From: a virus
IMG/VR virus record: IMGVR_UViG_3300028315_000508
Span: 82,092-146,091 of that record
DNA: 64,000 nt
Direction: 5' to 3' (one strand)
In this document: in pieces, positions 37,099-63,517 of the stretch
How the letters are laid out: each line of letters opens with the position of its first letter
Position numbering within the stretch: the first letter of the stretch is position 1
Notes under the pieces: model-generated
Seen by the model: only the letters and a program-made list of their open reading frames with translations
Database searches by the model: none
Told to the model about the DNA's origin: nothing
Made by a program: the position numbers and the translations under genes

Positions 37099-37605
37099 AT
37101 GAAACAAATCGTCTTTATCACCGCTGTCACTCTGATGTTTTGTGGATGCCCGAAGAGGCCATACGCTCAAGACCTTGAGGGGCTCACCGGTCCTGCATAC
37201 GCTGCGGCGATGAATGAGAGGTTGCATCGATTGCAAGAAAGGAACGCGGCGAGAGCTGCGACGGCCCCTGCTCCTACAAGGAGGGTAAAGGAGCCTGCGA
37301 GAGCAGTTCAAAGACCCGTGCTTACTGGTCCAGCTTATGCGGCGGCCAGAAGTCAAATGCTGTATCAGTGGCAGCGTAGGAATGCTGCCACTGGCTTTCA
37401 TGGTCAAGGTCTTACCGGCCCGTATTATGCAGCTTACGAGGCCAACGTCAAAGCTAACCAGAGGCTTTGGAACGGCACTTGGCCGAACAACTTCTACTAC
37501 CCCTACTACACCCCTCCTAGAAAGCCAGGAAGCGTCAGTCGTCTCAATGATCCCTGGCTCTGGTACAGTCAACAGCCGTATGGCTGGTTTCAGTGGCGTT
37601 ACTAA
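37099..37605 (+). CDS. secreted lipoprotein with LTGPxYAA repeats
   Basis: 168 residues from ATG 37099. KQIVFITAVTLMFCGC carries a lipobox-like FCG-C (two Cys in the vicinity). The mature part has three copies of LTGP(A/Y)YAA (about residues 30, 77, 113), each followed by a charged helix with W/Q (RLQERNAA, YQWQRRNAA), and an aromatic C-terminus (WPNNFYYPYYTPP). TAATG overlap with the next gene. Confidence 0.62.
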   Translation: MKQIVFITAVTLMFCGCPKRPYAQDLEGLTGPAYAAAMNERLHRLQERNAARAATAPAPTRRVKEPARAVQRPVLTGPAYAAARSQMLYQWQRRNAATGFHGQGLTGPYYAAYEANVKANQRLWNGTWPNNFYYPYYTPPRKPGSVSRLNDPWLWYSQQPYGWFQWRY

Positions 37606-37982
37606 TGCATTTCTCAGAATTTCTGAATCGCGTCATCGATGACGGGATCGCAGCCGCTCGTGAGGACTATGCTAAACCGGCCCAAAAGCGTAAGCTTGAA
37701 GGCTCGATCGCCGGTTTTGAGGCATGTCGGAACGTCCGCCCTTTGCATGCTCATCAGGATCTCACGGAACTTTTGGATGCGGCGAGAACTTCTACTCATG
37801 CCGCTTCGCTCGGTGACGAACGTGAGGACTATTGGTGGTTCAGATGCTACGAACTCGAGGTCGAGTGGATTTGCAACTGCGTTTCTGCGGTGCTTATCAA
37901 CGAAGGCAAACCTCCAATAATTACTCCTACAGCTCGTGGAGTATTAAAAGCTGCAGATATCATCGGTGTTCGTGCTTCTTAA
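37605..37982 (+). CDS. hypothetical helical protein
   Basis: 125 residues from ATG 37605 (TAATG). Helical, with HFSEFLNRVIDDGIAAAREDYA and ELEVEWICNCVSAVL. No family recognised. Last normal gene before the hairpin array. Confidence 0.6.
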   Translation: MHFSEFLNRVIDDGIAAAREDYAKPAQKRKLEGSIAGFEACRNVRPLHAHQDLTELLDAARTSTHAASLGDEREDYWWFRCYELEVEWICNCVSAVLINEGKPPIITPTARGVLKAADIIGVRAS

Positions 37983-38608
37983 TGGACCTGTCCGGCACGG
38001 TTAGGTCCGGTACGTTGCGGAGCGGCCCGTTGAGCAAATGCTTGGTAGTCCATGACTTTTCATGGAGTGTCTTGCCCCGGTGCAGCCCGGAACGGCTCGT
38101 GATCGTCGCGGAAGTGCAGTGTAAGGTGACCAATGGTTTCCAAGCGGCTCGGAGGGTAAAGCGAGTCGTGGATTGTACCGGAGCTGCCCGTCTTGAGTAG
38201 AGTCCGGCCCGGCACTGTGAGGAAGCCGATGGCTTTTTCAAGGATGGGTGAGTTTTGTCCCGGTCTCGCCCGGTAAGGTAAGAACCGTTGTGGAACGCAC
38301 AGGTGGCCGATGGCCTTTCTTGGATCGTCGCGTCAAGCGAGGGTTCGGAATGGTAGGCATAGTTTCGGCTAGCGTACGGCTCAGCCCGGAATGTCATGCT
38401 TCGGTGGCCAATGGCTTTACAAGGATAGTCTAGGTGCTGTAATGCTGGTTCGGGATTGGTGCGTAGTGAATCGGTGGTGTATGGTAGCCAACGGCTTTTC
38501 GGGGCTAGTCCAGGCTCGGCGTAGCAGGTCCCGGCAAAGCAGGTGACCGGTTGGCGGGTCAGAGCTTGTCTGGGCAAGGGAGTCCATGACCTTCAACAAG
38601 GCAGAAAG

Positions 38609-38875
38609 ATGGCAAAGCGTCAGCAGAAGTTCCAGCGGCCGAAGTTCACTGTCGACGAGTCGTTTCTCGGCGTGACGGTTGTCAAGATGAATGATGCGAT
38701 GAGAGAATTGCTGTCGCAATTCATCGACGATGTCAATGATGTGGAACCAGAGATTCTGGCTCTCAGCAAGGCACTCATCGACCCCGTCAAGAGCCGTGAA
38801 CTGCGAGACGAGAAGAACAGACGCAACCATCGTCGCAACAGACAAGTATTTGATGAGGAAGAAGCTGTAGCCTAA
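38609..38875 (+). CDS. small charged protein inside the hairpin array
   Basis: 88 residues from ATG 38609 with AAGG upstream. Sequence is Lys/Arg-rich at both ends (AKRQQKFQRPKF; RRNHRRNRQ) and contains an acidic helical middle (SQFIDDVNDVEPEILALSKALIDP). Being the only plausible gene in the array makes it a candidate binding partner of the hairpins, though this is speculation. Confidence 0.65.
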   Translation: MAKRQQKFQRPKFTVDESFLGVTVVKMNDAMRELLSQFIDDVNDVEPEILALSKALIDPVKSRELRDEKNRRNHRRNRQVFDEEEAVA

Positions 38876-40519
38876 TCGGCTAGGCTTTGCCATACCAATC
38901 GATACGAGCGATGGGTGTGGAGCGGTTGGGTTCACTTTGGCAGTCTGCGGGTGCCCAGTGCACTTTCCGGGACCGGCTCGTCCAGGTTAATGTAGGGCCG
39001 GGAAAGTCTCGATACGGAAAGTCTCTGTAGGGGTGCCCAGTGCACATCACACGGCACGTTTGGGTGCGGAATACCTCGTCTGGTAGCGGCACTGCGTGCT
39101 AAGGCCGGAGCCGGGGAGTCAATGGCTCTTTTATGGTTCGGCACGTAGGGGCACGTTTAGGATGGCCCGGTTAGCTGGGGTCCGGTACTCACCGGCGGGT
39201 TTAGGGAGCCAATGGCTTCACCGGGCACGTACCGGAAGGTCACGCTCGGGTTGGGCTGCCACCGGCTCGTCATAGAGCGGTTAGGAAGTCCACGACTTCA
39301 CAGGGACCGGATAGGTGAGTCTTGTCCCGGTCTGGTCCGCACGGGATTGATCCGGCAATGAATAGCAGGTCATGCTACGGTAAGTTTCGGAAGCCAACGG
39401 CTTTACTGGGAGCGGTATGCTCGGGTGTTGCAGAGTGTGCAGAGAAGCGGTCTGACATGGAGATCAACGGTCTATCACAGACGTGGCATGAATCGGACAG
39501 CTCCGCCTTGGCGGCCAAGGGCCGCCACACGGCTAGATGCGGAAGTGTCGGCATTGGCAAGAGCGGGGTGCGTCCAGGTATCGTACGGGAACCAATGGTT
39601 TATTACCAGGTGCGGCCAGGAGCGGCTGTGCCCGGTAGGGCTGGGTCCGGAAAACCCCGGCATAGCAGGGTCAGGGAGTCCACGACTCACTCAATGGCTA
39701 GGGAAGGATGGTCCCGGCAGAGTTCGGTTGCGTGCGGCACAGCGTGGAAAGAGCCGGGAAGCCAACGGCTTCTTTTGAGGCAGGGCATGGTGCTGTTTGG
39801 TACGCCAGTGATCGGCGTGGTGGTAACGGACCGGTTTGGTAGCCAATGGCTTTTATTTAGGGCCGGTACCGGAAGGTGCGGACCGGCATGCTGTAGTCCG
39901 GTGCGGTACGGTGTGGAAGTCCATGACTTCACTTGGATTGGTCCTGCTTGTTTCGGTAGTGTTCGGCGAGGAAGTGCTAGGTGTGATTTGTTGAGGCACT
40001 GCCCGGAGGCCAATGGCCGCTTTTGAGGCTTGGATGAGCACGTAGTGGCACGGCACTGTAGGCTGTGGAGTGGTTTACCTCGGTGTTGCGGGGATCGGCA
40101 GGGTTGGGGAGCCAACGGCTTCTAACGGGCAAGGTCCGCCGCGTCTCGATGCGGAGCGTATTGGACTGGTACCCAATGGGTTTTATTGGATTGGTCCGCC
40201 ATGGTAGAGCTAGGCTCGGTCGGGAACGTTTGGGATTGTCTCGCACTGGACTGGCTTGCACAGGTAGGCAATGGGAGTCGACGACTCTTTCAAGGCCCGT
40301 TTCGGAGCTGCCATGCCAGTTTTGGTACGCTCGGCAGCGGTTCGGAGTCCAATGGACTTTCAAGGCGAAACCAGGCACGGTTTGGTGCGTCTTGGACCGG
40401 CTACCATCGGAGGTCAACGGCCTTTTTCGGGCAAGGCAAAACGAGTTGCTGCCAGGCACGAGTGCTGCTGGGTACGGCAAGTCTCGGGACTCCATGAGTT
40501 TCCACCTAGGAAATCAAAC

Positions 40520-40655
40520 GGGAGCGTAGCTCAAAATGGACAGAGCCGATTTTCGAAAATCGAGTATCGACTGCTACCGTGGGCAGGAGGTTATTTTTCC
40601 TCCTAGCAGCGGGTGTGGAAGATGCGACATGCGGGTTCGAGCCCCGTCGCTCCTA
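40520..40655 (+). tRNA. tRNA-like gene with 61-nt expansion before the T arm
   Basis: Acceptor G-GGAGCG (40520-40526) pairs with CGCTCCT (40648-40654), D arm GCTC/GAGC, T arm GCGGG-TTCGAGC-CCCGT. These are canonical. Between D and T arms are 84 nt rather than 23. They include a perfect palindrome CGATTTTCGAAAATCG (40547-40562; anticodon would read CGA or TCG), a CTGC/GCAG hairpin and AGGAGG/CCTCCT (40585-40606, T-rich loop). CCA not encoded. It may be a tRNA with an insertion or processing element. Confidence 0.62.
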
Positions 40656-41677
40656 CTACTGGTTGGTTTAGACGTGCATAACATAGGCGTGTCTGAGCCC
40701 GGCCCGTGATTGGTAGTGTATAGTCCGGTCGGGAGGGGAGGCCAATGGCCTTTATTGGTCCGGAGAGGCATAGCGTGTCACAGTTCGGCTCGAGCACGGT
40801 AATGTCGGGAGTGGTTAGGTGTCCAATGGACTTTCCTACGAGGAAATCACATGGATTGCGTAGGCTATGCAAGCCAAGAACAGAACCGGAGGGTCTGGTA
40901 TTGGAAGCCTACGGCTTTTCCTGGAATGGCTCGGATGGTCTAGAGTAGACCCAGGTGGAGCTGGGTTCGGAAATGTTGGGTTAGGGAGCCAAAGGCTTTA
41001 AGTGGATTGTCGCGTCTAGTCTAGGTGGTCTCGTCGTGGTGTGAGCGTAGCACGGTTTGTAGAGACTGGGACCGGCACGGTCAGCTTCGGACTGCAACGG
41101 GAGCCGATGGCTTCACAAGGATTGGACGGGAAAGGACAGCAATGCAGAGGTTAGGTATGCTCGGGTCCGGGAGCCCACGGCTTTATGTATGAATCGGCAG
41201 GGCTGGGCAGATTTCGGAGCGTCGCTGCTGGCAATGCCAAGAGCTTGGGATTCCATGAATCTCAATTGGATAGTCTAGGCTCGGTGCGGTAGTGTTCGGA
41301 ATAGTGCGGCAGGCAAAGGGACTCAAAGAGTCTTCCAAAGGCTAGGTTGGCTGAGGCCGATCCAGGTGGTGCAGTAGCTCGTCCAGGATTGTTCCGGCAT
41401 TGCGAGGAAGCCAATGGCTTTTCGAGGCTAGTTGCCCGGAGACCAATGGTCTTTCATGGATCGGCAGGGCTGGGTAAGTTTCAGCCCGGTGCCCCTAGGA
41501 TCGTCAAGGAGACCAATGGTCACTCAAGGTTTGTCACGGATAGTCGTGGTTCGGTCATACTGGTTAGGGACCGGCGAGCCGGGGTAAAGCACGGCTAGGC
41601 TCGGGGACCAATGGTCATTTAACGTCGCACGTATTTCAGCAACACGGCACCGGTAAAATTCACCCACGGAGATTTCC

Positions 41678-42160
41678 ATGCACATCATTAAGCTGATTCG
41701 CTGGTCCAGTGAAGAGATCAAAATCTTCAAGGAATTGGAGCGATGGCTCACACTGCACGAACGAGCAAATCTCATTGACGACGAGGTCAAGGCAGCCTGC
41801 AGATTGGCACGCGACCCCGGCAGTCCTGTACCAGAAGCGAAATTGCTCGAATCTATTGCAGCCTGGGAGAAAATCAAGGCTGTCATGGAGCAACAGAGCG
41901 AAGATGCCGCCAAAATCGCACCCAATTTGCCAGAGGACGTCGGCGGCGTAGGAATTATCTCCAAGCCACGCATGGCCTACCAGCTACTCGAAGAGGTCGG
42001 CCTGACCTGCATCACCGACATCGAGCGAGCATTGCATCTCGCCAGATTTGGACTCGGCTTTCTTCGCGGCGATCTCAAAGCTGCGTCTCTGCTTGACGTA
42101 CGTCCCGAAGATGGGGCCTACATTCTTCAATTCGAGAACGTCGATCCGGAAGAACTCTGA
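41678..42160 (+). CDS. hypothetical helical protein
   Basis: 160 residues, ATG 41678 after GGAG. Helical with charged heptads (SSEEIKIFKELERWLTLHERANLIDDEVKAACRLARD). No family recognised. First gene after the hairpin array; GTATTTCAGC promoter-like motif at 41631. Confidence 0.6.
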   Translation: MHIIKLIRWSSEEIKIFKELERWLTLHERANLIDDEVKAACRLARDPGSPVPEAKLLESIAAWEKIKAVMEQQSEDAAKIAPNLPEDVGGVGIISKPRMAYQLLEEVGLTCITDIERALHLARFGLGFLRGDLKAASLLDVRPEDGAYILQFENVDPEEL

Positions 42161-48426: not shown

Positions 48427-49266
48427 ATGTCTGACTCTTTCGTGCCCAAAAGCTATGCTTTCAAGTTCACGGGCACCACGGCGATGCTGATGCACGCCGA
48501 CGACGTCGAAGCCGCCGACCGCCTGCAAGCCTGGCGGAAGGACCCGAGTAACAACGAACTGTCTGTCCCCGGCGACGATCGGTCGCCACCGTGGACATGG
48601 CGGACCTACCTCTACGCCGGAGAGATCGATGGCGTTCGGCAGGTCGTGATTCCGTCCTCGAACGTGATGGCCGCCCTCCGCTACGCTGGCTCCCAGATGA
48701 CCTTGAAGGGCAACAAGACCTTCAAGAAGCTGTCGCAGTCCGGCATCGCCATCCTCGACGAGTTCTGTGCCCTCAAAGTCGGCCTCGGCCCCATCGAACA
48801 CGCTCCCGTGATCGACGCCGAATACGCCCGGCTGGCCGGACTCATGCCGAACGAAGGCGAGAGCTACGAAGCCCTCGCCGCCCGCCATGCCGCTGAGCTT
48901 GGCGTCGACGTCGGCAAGCCCCATCCCGGATTCGGACTGCGTCCGATCCTCGCATCGGACATCGATGCGATTCCGGAGATGATGAAGTACCGAGACCAAG
49001 TGACGCAGTGTCGCAAGCTCGGCTTCAACCTCTACGCCAAGCGTGCCCCGGTCGGCAAGTCCAAGCACGTCCGCTGCCGTCCTCGCTTCGAGGTCTGGGA
49101 AGTCACCGGGACTCTCAAGGTCACGCAGGAAGCGATCGACGACAAGATCCTCACCACGATGCTCAACATCGCTGGCGAGCAGTCCGGCCTGGGTGACTGG
49201 CGTCCCTCAAGCCCGCTGTCTCCTGGACCTTTCGGTCAGTTCACCGTCGATCTGAAAGCCGTCTGA
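48427..49266 (+). CDS. abundant-type phage protein with GLGDWRP motif
   Basis: 279 residues. YAFKFTGTTAMLMHADDVEAADRL at the start and GLGDWRPSSPLSPGPFGQFTVDL at the end, where a Gly-rich loop before a final strand recalls RAMP-type or phage beta-fold proteins; no family assigned. Very GC-rich, regular codons suggest high expression. Own promoter-like GTATTTGATT at 48333 and terminator downstream make it a single-gene unit. Confidence 0.65.
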   Translation: MSDSFVPKSYAFKFTGTTAMLMHADDVEAADRLQAWRKDPSNNELSVPGDDRSPPWTWRTYLYAGEIDGVRQVVIPSSNVMAALRYAGSQMTLKGNKTFKKLSQSGIAILDEFCALKVGLGPIEHAPVIDAEYARLAGLMPNEGESYEALAARHAAELGVDVGKPHPGFGLRPILASDIDAIPEMMKYRDQVTQCRKLGFNLYAKRAPVGKSKHVRCRPRFEVWEVTGTLKVTQEAIDDKILTTMLNIAGEQSGLGDWRPSSPLSPGPFGQFTVDLKAV

Positions 49267-59045: not shown

Positions 59046-59199
59046 TGGTGGCATCTCCTTTGGTGGATGTATTGGTATTTTTGAATGGCACTGCTTGGCT
59101 CGGTGCGGCAGGGTAAGGACGAGACCGGCACGGAATGGGGGCCGATGGCCGATGGGAATACCCTCGTGTGCTTTTTGCTGGGCAAACGTATTTAAGGTT

Positions 59200-59242: not shown

Positions 59243-59284
59243 GGTAAGAAGCTCTTTGACAACACAATCGGTGGACTCAGGTCT

Positions 59285-59409
59285 GGAGGACTTGGTAGAA
59301 GTTCAGAGTACGGGTTCGATTCCCGTTATCGCTACCAACTGCGATATGTGCCGAATGGTAAGGCACCACACTTTTCAATGTGGCATTACACTTTTGCCGA
59401 CTTTCCTCC
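59285..59409 (+). ncRNA. structured insert E1 enclosing a permuted tRNA
   Basis: GGAGGA (59285) pairs with TCCTCC (59404-59409). Inside that GGTAGAAGT (59294-59302) pairs with ACTTTTGCC (59390-59398) with two wobbles. Conserved CTT and GACT internal bases and a TTCAGAG segment follow. The cavity holds a tRNA in permuted order. Confidence 0.75.
59303..59389 (+). tRNA. permuted tRNA-Glu(UUC)-like
   Basis: The 3' half comes first: AGAGT, T arm ACGGG-TTCGATT-CCCGT (59310-59326), TATCGCT, A, CCA (to 59337). It is followed by the 5' half: TGCGATA (six of seven pair with TATCGCT), D arm TGCC/GGCA, anticodon arm CCACA/TGTGG (59366-59383) with an 8-nt loop CTTTTCAA, which would read UUC. The join would fall in the variable loop. 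CCA is encoded. A recombination remnant is the alternative. Confidence 0.6.
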
Positions 59410-59432
59410 AAACCTGATTGCACCGATTCAAT

Positions 59433-59528
59433 CGCCTGTTCGTCCAGTGGTAGGACAGAAGGGGAACGCTGCAGACTTCGGTCGCAGATATGACCCGCCA
59501 GACCTCGGTTCGATTCCGAGATGGGCGA
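59433..59528 (+). tRNA. tRNA-like gene with expanded central region
   Basis: Acceptor CGCCTGT/ATGGGCG (two wobbles), D arm GTCC-AGTGGTA-GGAC, T arm CTCGG-TTCGATT-CCGAG are good. The D-to-T interval is 47 nt instead of 23 and contains GACTTCGGTC and GGTC-GCAGATAT-GACC structure. Anticodon cannot be assigned. No CCA; followed by CTTGG then insert E2. Confidence 0.6.
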
Positions 59529-59531
59529 CTT

Positions 59532-59650
59532 GGAGGACTCTGGTAGCAGTTTAGAGATTTAGCTCAATTGGCAGAGCATCGGTCTATGGAACCGAGAGTT
59601 GCGGGTTCGATTCCCGTGATCTTAACCAACACTGTTGCTGACTTTCCTCC
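59532..59650 (+). ncRNA. structured insert E2 enclosing a linear tRNA
   Basis: GGAGGA (59532-59537)/TCCTCC (59645-59650) and GGTAGCAGT/ACTGTTGCT (59542-59550; 59631-59639, wobbles) with CTCT and GACTT internal bases. Contains the tRNA at 59553-59628 and is followed by ATTTTTTT, so may also terminate. Confidence 0.72.
59553..59628 (+). tRNA. tRNA with CCA and AUG anticodon
   Basis: AGAGATT/GATCTTA acceptor (A1-A72 mismatch), GCTC/GAGC D arm, TCGGT-CTATGGA-ACCGA anticodon arm, GCGGG-TTCGATT-CCCGT T arm, A73, CCA encoded. Anticodon ATG would read CAU (His); A34 is rare in bacteria. Confidence 0.7.
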
Positions 59651-59686
59651 ATTTTTTTCAACAACGCAAAGGACGCTACAGCTACA

Positions 59687-59887
59687 ATGAGTGAAGGTAC
59701 GATCAAGAAGAAAGTGGAAGACAAGGGATTCGGCTTCATCAAGCGAGGAGAGGGTCAGTCGGATCTGTTCTTCCACGCAACTGCTTGCAACGGTCAGTTC
59801 GAGCAGCTTCAAGAGGGACAAAAGGTGAAGTTCGATGAGGGTCGCGGCGAAAAGGGGCCGCGAGCAGAGAACGTTCAACTTGTTTGA
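59687..59887 (+). CDS. cold-shock domain protein
   Basis: 66 residues. GTIKKKVEDKGFGFIKRGEGQSDLFFHATACNG carries the RNP1 (KGFGFI) and RNP2 (DLFFH) motifs of CspA-type single-strand nucleic-acid chaperones. Lies between tRNA genes; may help RNA folding or anti-termination (inference). AAGGA upstream. Confidence 0.92.
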   Translation: MSEGTIKKKVEDKGFGFIKRGEGQSDLFFHATACNGQFEQLQEGQKVKFDEGRGEKGPRAENVQLV

Positions 59888-60012
59888 TACATGCGGTCCT
59901 GGCCTTCTGGCAACGGAAGGAGGACACCGGTGCTGTCACTCACCCCGGTGAGGGAAGCTCTGGTGGGCTAAAGAACAGTAGGTGAAAGTCCTGCGGACCG
60001 TGCCAATATAAT
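59888..60012 (+). ncRNA. possible structured RNA between csp and tRNA-Ser
   Basis: GCGGTCC (59894) pairs with GGACCG (59995-60000); inside are CCGG-type hairpins (ACACCGG/CCGGTG) and a GGTGAAAGTCC stretch. No ORF. Fold suggests an RNA of about 110 nt; no known family recognised. Confidence 0.4.
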
Positions 60013-60099
60013 GGATGGGCAAGCCAATTGGTGATGGCACCCGGTTTGAACCCGGACGAGCTGTTAAAAGCCTTGGGAGTTCGACTCTCCCCCCTTCCG
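60013..60099 (+). tRNA. tRNA-Ser(UGA)
   Basis: Class II tRNA: acceptor GGATGGG/CCCTTCC (one T-T mismatch), D arm GCC/GGC, anticodon loop TTTGAAC, long variable arm, T arm GGGAG-TTCGACT-CTCCC, G73. CCA not encoded; followed by CTCGG and insert E3. Confidence 0.85.
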
Positions 60100-60102
60100 C
60101 TC

Positions 60103-60163
60103 GGTGGACTAGAGAACGATTCAGAGAACTGGTTTTTCAAAAGGTCGTTTTCGCCTTTCCGCC
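60103..60163 (+). ncRNA. structured insert E3, short
   Basis: GGTGGA/TCCGCC (60103-60108; 60158-60163) and GAGAACGA/TCGTTTTC (60112-60119; 60145-60152), TTCAGAG, then only 18 nt in the cavity. Followed by ACC TTTTTT. Same plan as E1/E2 with different base pairs. Confidence 0.7.
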
Positions 60164-60261
60164 ACCTTTTTTCAGGTGAGGCATGGTGCTGTTAAAAAAA
60201 CAGACCTACGTGCCAAAGACCCTGTACTGAAATGCTGAAATGCTGAGTTACGAGGATAACG

Positions 60262-60456
60262 ATGGACGCTCACTTGCATGATTCCAATGGCAACCTAGTT
60301 GCAACTGTGCAAGTGCCGGTCCAGCGTGCTTACCCGCCGTTTGTCGCATACGATGGTGCTGTGTACCAGTGCCGGAACGTGGCGAGTGCGGCTGGTGACT
60401 ACGACTTGGTCGGTCGCGTTCACGTTGTCGAAGTTTCTCCAACCTCTGGATCATGA
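60262..60456 (+). CDS. small hypothetical protein
   Basis: 64 residues from ATG 60262 (GAGGATAACG upstream). DAHLHDSNGNLVATVQVPVQRAYPPFVAYDGAVYQCRN, beta-rich. No family recognised. Confidence 0.6.
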   Translation: MDAHLHDSNGNLVATVQVPVQRAYPPFVAYDGAVYQCRNVASAAGDYDLVGRVHVVEVSPTSGS

Positions 60457-60769
60457 AGGGACTACTATCATTCTGATTAAGAATGATGGGGTGCAGCGAT
60501 GCTGTCAAGCCGGTAAGTTGATGAATCCGCAAGAGCGGTCGGCAACCCGGAGTTCAGACGTTGAGAGATTTTTACTGGAACCCCTCTCCTGCAACACAAC
60601 AATAACCCCGAGGATTCAATGACCAGAAGCCTAACCAGGATTTCCAGGTAAGACTCTGCGAGAATTCCGAAGTTACGGGTCACATGCCGTAACACGCCGG
60701 GAAGGCCATCCGGCAGCAGGAGATAGAAAAGAAACACGAACCTCATGGCTGTGGTTTTGTGTCTTTAAT
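60457..60769 (+). other. intergenic stretch with hairpins, no gene seen
   Basis: 313 bp holding ATCATTCT/AGAATGAT (about 60469), CCGC-AAGA-GCGG (60526), GTTACGG/CCGTAAC with an 8-nt loop (about 60672) and the second ACACGAACC hairpin (60725-60766). No ORF of interest; some pieces look tRNA-derived. Confidence 0.5.
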
Positions 60770-60930
60770 ATGACGGATCTTGACCGACGCATCGAACAAC
60801 TGGACAGAGAAGCCGACAAGCTGATCGATCAGGGGTTGAACGAACGAGCGGCCGAGAAAACGGAAGAACGATTGAGACTGGAAGCACTGAGAAAACACGA
60901 ACCTCAAGACGACGGTTTGTGTCAAAAATA
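60770..60930 (+). CDS. 53-residue coiled-coil peptide
   Basis: ATG 60770 to TAG. TDLDRRIEQLDREADKLIDQGLNE then KTEERLRLEALRKHE: strongly helical, charged heptads. The ACACGAACC hairpin is directly upstream and its third copy is inside the 3' end. No Shine-Dalgarno. Confidence 0.5.
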
Positions 60931-60941
60931 GAGAACACTTG

Positions 60942-61016
60942 ACGCGGAGTGGAGCAGTCCGGCAGCTCGCGAGGCTCATAACCTCGAGGTCGTGGGTTCG
61001 AATCCCATCTCCGCCA
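60942..61016 (+). tRNA. initiator tRNA-fMet(CAU)
   Basis: CGCGGAG/CTCCGCC with C1-C72 mismatch, GTGGAGCAG...AGCTC D arm, GAGG-CTCATAA-CCTC anticodon arm and T arm GTGGG-TTCGAAT-CCCAT. Mismatched 1-72 and the D arm match bacterial initiators. CCA not encoded; insert E4 starts 4 nt downstream. Confidence 0.9.
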
Positions 61017-61019
61017 CTT

Positions 61020-61104
61020 GAAGGACTCTGAGAACAAGTCAGATATCTTCGGTTATCGACGCCCGCCCATCAAGCGGCGGGCACCTTGCTCTCGACTTTC
61101 CTTC
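61020..61104 (+). ncRNA. structured insert E4 with two hairpins
   Basis: GAAGGA/TCCTTC and GAGAACAAG/CTTGCTCTC (one mismatch), CTCT and GACTT internal bases, TCAGAT. The cavity contains GCCCGCC/GGCGGGC (61060-61082). Confidence 0.68.
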
Positions 61105-61219
61105 TCATTTTCTACCACTACCAACGACCTCCAGAGATTGGAGGAGATCATGACTCACCGCACCACACAATTGAAACGCAAGAGGTTGAAACGCTGGTCG
61201 AGTACCAGTTGTTATTCAT

Positions 61220-61292
61220 GCCCTTGTGACGCAATTGGTAGCGTAGCTGACTTTTAATCAGCAGGTTGCAGGTTCGAGTCCTGCCGGGGGCA
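61220..61292 (+). tRNA. tRNA-Lys(UUU)
   Basis: Normal cloverleaf: GCCCTTG/CGGGGGC, GCTGA-CTTTTAA-TCAGC, GCAGG-TTCGAGT-CCTGC, A73. CCA absent. Confidence 0.93.
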
Positions 61293-61311
61293 CTTGGCGA
61301 AAGCCATCCCC

Positions 61312-61385
61312 GGACCCTTAGCTCAGTTGGTAGTAGCAATCGGCTCTTAACCGATAGGTCCTCGGTTCGAACCCGAGAGGGTCCA
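61312..61385 (+). tRNA. tRNA-Lys(CUU)
   Basis: GGACCCT/AGGGTCC, ATCGG-CTCTTAA-CCGAT, CTCGG-TTCGAAC-CCGAG, A73. D arm has one extra nucleotide. CCA absent. Two Lys isoacceptors in tandem. Confidence 0.93.
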
Positions 61386-61397
61386 CTTTGACAATTT

Positions 61398-61525
61398 GGG
61401 TCTTCTGGTCTGATAACTACGCGACCTAACCGCTCACGAAATCGACATTCTGGTGCACCAGGGTGAAGACGAGGCGGGTCGAAGCAATGGCGGTAGGGAT
61501 TCGGGTTCGATTCCCGTGAGATCCA
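61398..61525 (+). tRNA. tRNA-Val(CAC)-like with 51-nt anticodon-loop insertion
   Basis: GGGTCTT/GAGATCC acceptor (wobbles), GGTC/GACC D arm, T arm before A525. Anticodon stem (A)ACCG(C)/(G)CGGT (429-433; 490-494) encloses CTCACGA plus about 51 extra nt, which fold as CTGGTG/CACCAG and TCGAC/GTCGA. Position is like an intron at 37/38. No CCA. Confidence 0.6.
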
Positions 61526-61680
61526 CTTGGTGTTTCAAGTCATTCAAGACGGCGAAAGCTTCCTGAGGCAGACGCCCGAGACGATCACGAGACAAGGTGT
61601 TTCAGAAGTAAAGTGAGCAGGCACGCAGGATAAGGAGATACTCCGATGCGAGACTAACAATCAACGATGCCAAGGATAAG

Positions 61681-62154
61681 ATGGAGAAAGCCATCGACTT
61701 TCTCGCAGACCAACTCCAGGGCATCACAAAACTTGGCGGCGGTGGTGAAGCGTCGCTTATTGGGTCTGTCAAGGCACAATACTACAGCCAGACAACGCCA
61801 ATCAGCCACTTCGCACACGTCACCAGGACAGGCAACAGGGTCTCCGTCACCCCGCACGAACCAACCTTCGTGCCAACCGTAGTGAAGGCACTCCAGCAAG
61901 CAGGATTCAACGCCTACCAATTTTCGAAAGATACAGCGGTAGTCGAGGTTCAGCCGCCGAGTGGTGATACCAAACGGGAGAAAGGGCAGCGAATCAGGAC
62001 GATCGGCGAAGAGACTAAGGTCGCAATCAGAAACATACGAAAACGATGCAAGAAAAGCATCGAGAAGGAGGAGATCAAGGAGCTTCAAGATTTGACAGAT
62101 AAGGCGATTTCGGCGGTTGACGAGATCATTGAGCGAAAGCTTTCTTACCTGTAA
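61681..62154 (+). CDS. frr: ribosome recycling factor
   Basis: 157 residues. The middle (VTRTGNRVSVTPHEPTFVPTVVKALQQAGFNAYQFSKDTAVVEVQPPSGDTKREKGQ) is domain II, and EETKVAIRNIRKRCKKSIEKEEIKELQDLTDKAISAVDEIIERK is the C-terminal helix with VAIRN-R of RRF. Slightly shorter than cellular RRF (about 185), with an abbreviated N-terminal helix. RRF plus EF-G splits post-termination ribosomes. AAGGA before ATG. Confidence 0.9.
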   Translation: MEKAIDFLADQLQGITKLGGGGEASLIGSVKAQYYSQTTPISHFAHVTRTGNRVSVTPHEPTFVPTVVKALQQAGFNAYQFSKDTAVVEVQPPSGDTKREKGQRIRTIGEETKVAIRNIRKRCKKSIEKEEIKELQDLTDKAISAVDEIIERKLSYL

Positions 62155-62188
62155 CGAACCTTGAAGCCATGAGACGTGTCCTTTTTAC

Positions 62189-62275
62189 GGAGGGACAAGC
62201 CAATTGGCGATGGCACCCCGCTCGAACCGGGACGAGGATTAAGCCCCCTTAGGAGTTCGACTCTCCTTCCCTCCG
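62189..62275 (+). tRNA. tRNA-Ser(CGA)
   Basis: GGAGGGA/TCCCTCC, GCC/GGC D arm, CCCG-CTCGAAC-CGGG anticodon arm, long variable arm, AGGAG-TTCGACT-CTCCT, G73. No CCA. Closely related to the UGA isoacceptor at 60013. Confidence 0.92.
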
Positions 62276-62392
62276 CTTGGGCCTTTGGTCCGCCAAAGAC
62301 AGCACTGCGTAAACACGCGGAAGTAAGACGATGATCTGAACTCGTCGTCACGCTTGAGGCACAAGGTCCACCATACAATTCAGAAATCCTGA

Positions 62393-62465
62393 TCCAAGAA
62401 GGCAGCCCTGATAAGGCGTGACGGCACCAGCCTCAGAAGCTGGCGGCCAAGCTGGAGATTGGTCT
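62393..62465 (+). tRNA. tRNA-Leu(CAG)-like fragment without T arm
   Basis: GCC...GGC D-like arm, then CCAGC-CTCAGAA-GCTGG (perfect anticodon arm, CAG), then GGCC. No T arm consensus follows within 60 nt. Could be a degenerate or split gene. Confidence 0.35.
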
Positions 62466-62508
62466 TTCTGATCGTTCTTTGACAATTCGAAACAACTGTA
62501 GTCCAAGT

Positions 62509-62582
62509 GGCGATGTAGCTCAACCGGCGAGAGCGGCTGTTTCATACGCAGCAGGTTACTGGTTCAAGTCCAGTCATCGCTA
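62509..62582 (+). tRNA. tRNA-Met(CAU) or Ile2
   Basis: GGCGATG/CATCGCT, GCTC/GAGC, GCTGT-TTCATAC-GCAGC, ACTGG-TTCAAGT-CCAGT, A73. No CCA; insert E5 follows after CTCG. C34 could be lysidine-modified for Ile. Confidence 0.88.
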
Positions 62583-62586
62583 CTCG

Positions 62587-62713
62587 GGAGGACTAGATAG
62601 AGATTCAGGTAAGCATCACTCTCATAAAGTGAAGACTGCTGGTTCGAATCCAGCCTCCGCCACCATCCATGGCGGAGAAGCTAAACGGTAAACATCTTTG
62701 TCGTCTTTCCTCC
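62587..62713 (+). ncRNA. structured insert E5 enclosing a permuted tRNA
   Basis: GGAGGA (62587-62592)/TCCTCC (62708-62713), GATAGAGAT/ATCTTTGTC (62596-62604; 62694-62702, wobbles), CTA and GTCTT internal bases, TTCAGG. Encloses the permuted tRNA-Met. Confidence 0.78.
62605..62693 (+). tRNA. permuted tRNA-Met(CAU)
   Basis: 3' half first: GTAAGC, TCACT-CTCATAA-AGTGA (62616-62632), AGACT, GCTGG-TTCGAAT-CCAGC, CTCCGCC, A, CCA (62665). Then TCCAT and the 5' half: GGCGGAG (62671-62677, seven perfect pairs with CTCCGCC), AA, GCTAAACGGTA. Joining in the D loop (repeated GGTA) gives a complete tRNA. Encoded CCA lies in the interior. Linear recombination remnant is possible. Confidence 0.72.
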
Positions 62714-63120
62714 CACCTTACAAAATCCCGATAGGCCCAAGAAGGTTGCGGGCCACCAGCCCGCCCCGAACGGTTCGATTCCGGCACTCAAGTGGAGCTA
62801 GGGTCTGAGGCTGACATCGGGACCATACAAGTACCAAACGGTGTCCATGACGATTCGTGGTGCAATTGCCGTAAAGCATTCTGGGTATTCAACCCAGCGA
62901 TACGATGTGGCGACTCGTCGAATCCGAGAGCTGTGAGGTATTTAACCAGCGGAAGCTGGAACACCTGCCCTTGTGGCTGAGGGGATCGGTCGGATCAAAG
63001 AAGGAGGAGCGATGCCTGCTTGCAGGACGGTTCGCTGGACCTGAGATTCGCCCCAAGAGAACAGAAGTCAAGTGCACAAAGCCGATTTGACTGAAACAGA
63101 AAGGTGCCTAGCTTCCATTC
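62714..63120 (+). other. unassigned 400 bp upstream of tmRNA
   Basis: No ORF. Contains a T-loop-like GGTTCGATTCC (62774), a GCGGG-CCACCAG-CCCGC hairpin (62757), CTGGG-TATTCAA-CCCAG (62881) and a promoter-like GTATTTAACC (62938-62947). May hold further odd tRNAs or the tmRNA promoter. Confidence 0.45.
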
Positions 63121-63460
63121 GGGGGCGATCGGATTCGACTGGTTGTCGGAAGATTGCACCGCGTGCCGTGGTTGGTCAGCAGGCCACGTAAAAAGCCGAC
63201 CAAAACATAATTGCCAAGCACAGCTTCGCAATGGCCGCCTAAAGCGGCCTTGGGTCACCAACTCGCCCTGAGGTGAAGTGACCGACATGCATCGGGGAAA
63301 GAAAGCGGTAGACTCCCATAAGCCGCTGGTTCAACCCATGGGATGCTGGCCCGCGATTCCGTCGCCGGAAGCAACGGCCTCAAGATAAAGCGGCGACTAC
63401 GCACGTAGAGGTGTTATCGGAAGCATTCCCAGGACGAGGGTTCAATTCCCTCCGCCTCCA
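63121..63460 (+). ncRNA. ssrA: tmRNA
   Basis: 340 nt. The 5' GGGGGCGATCGGATTCGAC and 3' GAGGG-TTCAATT-CCCTC-CGCCTCC-A form a tRNA-Ala-like domain with the G3-U70 alanine identity pair. ACGTAAAAAGCCG precedes the message as in E. coli. After ATAATT the frame reads GCC AAG CAC AGC TTC GCA ATG GCC GCC TAA (63213-63242), tag AKHSFAMAA, ending in Ala-Ala like protease tags. Pseudoknots include CCCAT/ATGGG. CCA not encoded. Rescues stalled ribosomes with SmpB, not seen here. Confidence 0.93.
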
Positions 63461-63517
63461 CTCAGTTCCTGCCGCCTCCACCACATTCCGCTCAAACATA
63501 TGGGTGGAGGTGGAGCG

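Follow-up and report, generated by a model that had tools for sequence, protein, structure and literature searches.

What is the long series of small hairpins that a large virus carries at positions 37983-41660 of a 64,000-nucleotide stretch of its DNA (the window, bases 82092-146091 of a linear IMG/VR virus record with a total of 146,091 bases)? An initial annotation described about 36 micro-hairpins with covarying stems and considered that they fit no known family. The hairpins are confirmed by the present analysis, and the statement about families no longer holds. The region is very probably an array of the guide RNAs (vrRNAs) of the VIPR system (PMC13142463), and the micro-hairpins are then the 3' tails of these guides. 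The element is under strong selection and, for a system that is known but very recently described, unusually large and divergent. The annotation was correct on the hairpins but saw half of the element, missing the (GG-H-NN)n repeats that fill the spacers, an 88-aa ORF, a tRNA gene, and three variant tails (38951, 39033, and 39510).

Judging from its sequence, the source virus is a large T4-like tailed phage. Its PHROGs matches include a baseplate wedge protein, portal, terminase, ribonucleotide reductase, and clamp loader. The top GenBank matches of the terminase are merely ~25-28% identical, and its IMG/VR relatives reach 85% identity.

Hairpin tails and pentamer repeats

The array contains 36 hairpins on the + strand, each with a NAY triloop (AAA in two cases) that is closed by a C-G pair. 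A strict search for a C-NAY-G loop with a stem of at least 4 bp and a GG 7 nt upstream of the loop returns 33 hairpins on the + strand and none on the - strand, compared with a mean of 0.17 and a maximum of 3 in 1000 dinucleotide-like shuffles. When the 36 array units are aligned with an outlier at 59134, only five columns are invariant across the 37 units: the GG at columns 4-5, C10, A12, and G14. The constancy of A12 agrees with the earlier report that the middle A of the triloop is kept. Stems vary between units. In the inner 4-bp stem, all but one of the 148 cells are paired, and 32 double changes are seen. If the 3' partner is slid by 1-3 bases, 0-3 double changes remain, and column shuffles average 8.8. 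These counts are drawn from copies in one array, most of them first found by their pairing, and differ in kind from a phylogenetic R-scape test. Stronger evidence comes from other viruses, in which the paired motif recurs (below). Wobbles in the inner stem (five G.U or U.G cells versus one A.C) moderately favor a + strand RNA over a DNA cruciform.

Between the hairpins, the DNA repeats the pentanucleotide GG-H-NN at a strict period of 5 nt. GG autocorrelation across the spacers peaks at 5, 10, 15, 20, and so on, and a cyclic HMM gains 406 nats with a period of 5 and almost none with periods of 3 and 4. A scan of all 146 kb for GG periodicity gives a comparable score only around a lone unit at 59.1 kb. 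This periodicity through the spacers indicates that each unit consists of a run of pentamers (8-19, median 12) followed by a hairpin, whose own GG keeps the pentamer register. The CAAGGAT-like stretch that had been noticed after the hairpins does exist, but it opens the next unit as that unit's first pentamer.

The NN letters of the pentamers are variable, and GG-H is near-constant. GG is intact in 227 of 437 pentamers (52%), most of the others have one G, and 17 have neither. The third base is C in 40%, T in 33%, A in 25%, and G in 2% (9/437). The constant triplet of the array therefore departs from a strict GGY and is better written in a relaxed form, G-B-H. Strong and weak GG tend to alternate, with non-GG neighbors disfavored (lag-1 r = -0.21, to which the parsing may contribute). 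The unit at 41445 has almost no repeat.

The array is divided into three blocks (Table 1). A GG precedes both copies of the pentaloop variant tail, as it does the CGGCC-AAG-GGCCG tail. The 88-aa ORF may have been inserted without any relation to the array, or it may be an accessory gene. In the tRNA gene, which ARAGORN missed and Rfam found, the long insert lies between the D arm and the T arm. An Rfam scan of 37900-41700 returns this tRNA as its sole match and no described RNA family for the array, which is also unmatched in Pfam and NCBIfam. The ORFs adjoining the array have no family match, no cas genes were seen next to it, and the region has a strong strand skew.

Table 1. Positions of the array, its parts, and associated genes in the window
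Feature	Position	Strand	Evidence or remark
Very probable VIPR vrRNA array: 36 canonical units (pentamer run + NAY-triloop tail) and 3 variant-tail units	37983..41660	+	5-nt GG periodicity, hairpins, pentamer parsing
Array block 1, 7 units	37983..38608	+	Starts at stop codon of gene 37605-37982
88-aa ORF interrupting the array, without family match	38609..38875	+	
Array block 2, 17 canonical units (tails 39121-40493) and three variant tails	38876..40510	+	
Variant tail GTGC-CCAGT-GCAC (pentaloop)	38951..38963; second copy 39033-39045	+	
Variant tail CGGCC-AAG-GGCCG, with GG before it	39510..39526	+	
Example unit: 12 pentamers, then tail GGTAGCC-AAT-GGCTTTT	39779..39856	+	Pentamer parsing
tRNA gene with long insert, within array, same strand	40520..40655	+	Rfam tRNA, 29.8 bits
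Array block 3, 12 units	40660..41640	+	Pentamer parsing
vipr gene, 279 aa, RAMP/Cas7-like	48427..49266	+	Family A HMM, E = 1.7e-75
Lone unit (tail 59134), upstream of tRNA/tmRNA cluster	59087..59157	+	

Related arrays and the Vipr protein

Relatives of the phage terminase (53 loci, some on whole contigs, up to 408 kb) have no array by hairpin model R1 and no GG periodicity, and their best periodic windows are in-frame coding repeats. The proteins flanking the array, used as bait, found no relatives. A three-unit DNA pattern led to a smaller, unrelated phage in which (GGCNN)n runs end in the hairpin type of the array and lie directly after one stop codon and before the next gene. With wider DNA patterns, the pentamer-hairpin unit turned up in dozens of unrelated viruses, where it neighbors a single conserved protein family. 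Detected in other viruses were 117 units (including a few chance matches and some from duplicate contigs). Relatives with unconserved stems had been named in the initial annotation as evidence that would count against it. The opposite is seen: unrelated viruses keep the hairpin with stems that are different yet paired (such as GAGCC/GGCTC, GCGCC/GGCGC, GCACC/GGTGC, GTCCC/GGGAC, GATTC/GAATC, and GCTGC/GCAGC). With ~39 vrRNAs in one block, the array in the window is the largest among the loci compared; the next has 24 pentamer tracts.

Matches to a two-hairpin pattern are mostly coding repeats (AAANGFIGT-like by eye) and hence not relatives. An AGYC-stem pattern gave 10 matches in prokaryote genome contigs, all of them single chance ones. 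This pattern is narrow, so VIPR may still occur in genomes, and some has been reported there (PMC13142463).

The genes that flank these elements belong largely to two families, A (~220 aa) and B (~165 aa). Family A is present in 53 of the collected loci and in none of the array-less terminase relatives fetched. A search with the protein only added 33 loci, of which 11 lie on contigs that the DNA patterns had already picked up. Among the remaining 22 contigs, 17 have a 5-nt array beside the family A gene, and three of the five array-less exceptions end in this gene or within ~100 nt of it. The array and the family A protein, Vipr, co-occur both ways, whether the search starts from DNA or from protein.

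Family A is phrog_4652 (function unknown) and has no match in Pfam or NCBIfam. Its profile has a single sequence match in the PDB, the 'SUSP1 Vipr protein' 36pp (E = 1e-37), and the window protein alone matches the same entry with E = 4.5e-6. The window Vipr, encoded by an intact gene, has a ~50-aa insert relative to other Viprs. Its AlphaFold model has a pLDDT of 87, and Foldseek matches to this model with E <= 0.001 are all CRISPR-Cas chains (RAMPs), though the TM-scores are low (0.1-0.5). In the GenBank phages examined that encode a Vipr homologue (LESphi2, VpaE1, and Medea1), GG-Y-NN runs lie near the gene. Family B usually adjoins Vipr and is flanked by vrRNAs; it has homologues in 33 loci (e.g., L164:6083-6541) and weak PHROG matches (phrog_5926). 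Its position suggests that it is probably an accessory vap gene. The family B HMM found no member in the window phage.

Some of the collected loci depart from the common layout. VIPR arrays with other tails occur at L290:9300-10000 (GGCC-GTAT-GGCC) and on a 195-kb virus contig at L283:10180-11700 (GCAC-TAA-GTGC). Another locus (L233:3500-4900) lacks the triloop hairpin; its 24 GGCNN tracts are separated by GGCGGTC, and a distant Vipr homologue (E = 1e-9) lies beside them. In Pseudomonas phage LESphi2 (P. aeruginosa), vrRNA-like GGCNN runs lie just upstream of the Vipr homologue (L272:4590-4910), which is annotated as hypothetical.

Comparison with VIPR and other repeat systems

VIPR, first described in 2026 (preprint April-June 2026) and thought to be older than CRISPR, consists of a phage RAMP homologue, Vipr, and vrRNAs in which GGY/NN repeats precede a structured 3' tail (PMC13142463; bioRxiv 2026.04.26.720920). 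Published vrRNAs have 9-16 YNNGG repeats, are transcribed, and bind Vipr (PMC13142463). The NN letters pair with double-stranded DNA in a noncontiguous manner, with one base skipped between pairs, and the Vipr-vrRNA complex represses transcription and has a role in phage-phage conflict (PMC13142463). In two clades, comprising 137 vrRNAs, GGY is kept throughout, and some types have 'a related consensus' (PMC13142463). Phage SUSP1 has four vrRNAs with a pseudoknot tail (PMC13142463).

We assign the array to VIPR because the phage has a Vipr that matches 36pp, because the VIPR architecture has been published (PMC13142463), and because GenBank phages with Vipr have GG-Y-NN runs. The anatomy of the array, the stem covariation, the two-way co-occurrence with Vipr, and the prediction of a RAMP-like fold come from the present analysis. 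Like VIPR, the system is phage-encoded, with a Vipr homologue and tandem pentamers of a constant triplet and variable NN. The 8-19 repeats per unit compare with the 9-16 published, and both have a structured 3' tail. The differences are that there are ~39 units here versus the four of SUSP1 in the main text of the preprint, that the repeat is a relaxed G-B-H rather than GGY, that vipr is not adjacent but sits 6.8 kb from the array, and that the family B gene was not found in the window phage. The tail is a plain NAY triloop and not a pseudoknot as in SUSP1; it may already be catalogued among types I-VII of the preprint. The points against the VIPR assignment are the GG in only 52% of pentamers, the A at 25% of third bases, the non-adjacent vipr, the null result for family B in this phage, the lack of a target in ~3 Mb (below), and the low TM-scores.

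The array also resembles CRISPR and its Class 1 effectors with Cas7/Csm3 RAMPs, in that guide units with a hairpin handle are arrayed in a genome with a protein of predicted RAMP fold. It differs in that guide letters are interleaved with the repeat. CRISPR arrays have near-identical direct repeats with unique contiguous spacers, whereas here the stems vary and the spacers have a 5-nt periodicity.

Binding sites of the trp RNA-binding attenuation protein (TRAP) are triplets separated by 2-nt spacers. A TRAP-like ring was considered for the 5-nt period and rejected because the co-occurring protein matches Vipr. The triplet and the partner protein are different here, the variable bases would bear information, and the association is with phages.

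Guides, targets, and competing explanations

As a vrRNA array, the region would be transcribed from the + strand and processed into predicted units of ~80 nt, each with ~12 GG-H-NN pentamers ending in the short triloop hairpin as its 3' tail. Vipr (48427-49266) would bind a vrRNA in 5-nt steps, holding the constant GG-H bases and presenting the NN dinucleotides, which would base-pair with double-stranded DNA, skipping one base from each dinucleotide to the next. Genes would thereby be silenced in competing phages or satellites. RNP formation, the 1-nt skip code, transcriptional repression, and the inter-phage role are carried over from the preprint on related systems, and we infer by analogy that the array is expressed and would work like published VIPR despite its relaxed repeat.

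Under the 1-nt skip rule, no guide targets were found in ~3 Mb of collected loci, with no excess over shuffled guides. The search was run with skips of 0-3 nt, and the 3-nt skip scored high because the array matches itself by construction. In a codon-phase test of the NN letters, antisense codon positions 1-2 are the best fit for the window guides (20/35), and sense positions 1-2 for other VIPR tracts (107/223); a control register is also biased, so the fit is only suggestive.

The relaxed repeat can be read in two ways. It is possible, although we hold this view tentatively and with less than even confidence, that one large T4-like virus stores ~40 VIPR guides at the scale of a CRISPR array. 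Its Vipr, with the ~50-aa insert, would accept G-B-H with strong and weak GG alternating, and this divergent noncontiguous code would let one phage silence many rivals. Alternatively, a large inherited array may be decaying, with eroding repeats and many units that no longer guide. The loss of GG from almost half of the pentamers, the almost repeat-less unit at 41445, the single tail with an A.C mismatch, and the absence of a target in ~3 Mb are all compatible with erosion. Set against these observations are nearly perfect tails (147/148 cells paired, five invariant columns), the rarity of pentamers with neither G (17/437) or with G as third base (9/437), the tendency of non-GG repeats not to adjoin (with the same caveat about parsing), and the intact vipr gene, and we consider decay unlikely.

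Two further explanations would dispense with guides altogether. The initial annotation had proposed an RNA sponge for a GGA-binding regulator such as CsrA, here taken as a host protein; a similar partner would be a TRAP-like ring protein, which recognizes triplets at regular intervals. CsrA/RsmA sponge RNAs such as CsrB and RsmZ carry many small hairpins with GG motifs per RNA, and the array likewise is made of many copies, each with an RNA hairpin, and its G-containing motifs are regularly spaced. However, the loops are NAY without GGA, the motif is GG-H in a 5-nt register, and a sponge would not need the variable NN letters. Also against a sponge is the two-way co-occurrence with a Cas7-like RAMP protein, for which the structure of a Vipr relative has been solved. 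The sponge proposal finds no support, and we regard it as very improbable. Equally improbable is a DNA-level element (a cruciform, replication origin, or protein-binding array), to which the palindromes and the strand skew could belong. The period is 5 nt rather than 10.5, a tRNA gene lies inside the array on the same strand, the wobbles favor + strand RNA, and published vrRNAs with the same architecture are transcribed and bound by Vipr (PMC13142463). The initial annotation had allowed selection on pairing in either RNA or cruciform DNA; the wobbles and the recurrence of the hairpin in other viruses support the former, and the cruciform is disfavored.

If the array is a set of VIPR guides, a phage with ~40 of them stores guides on the scale of a CRISPR array with no adaptation genes known to be involved, far more than the four guides of the example in the main text of the preprint. 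Its relaxed repeat would show, in a natural setting, how much strictness the GGY/NN code requires, and decoded guides would record the mobile elements that the virus has fought. Further VIPR loci can readily be sought with the triloop tail, which covaries in the array and is shared by many viruses.

Elsewhere in the window, eight tRNA genes and a tmRNA (tag AKHSFAMAA) are clustered at 59250-63470, together with what appear to be extra tRNA-like stretches that ARAGORN does not call.
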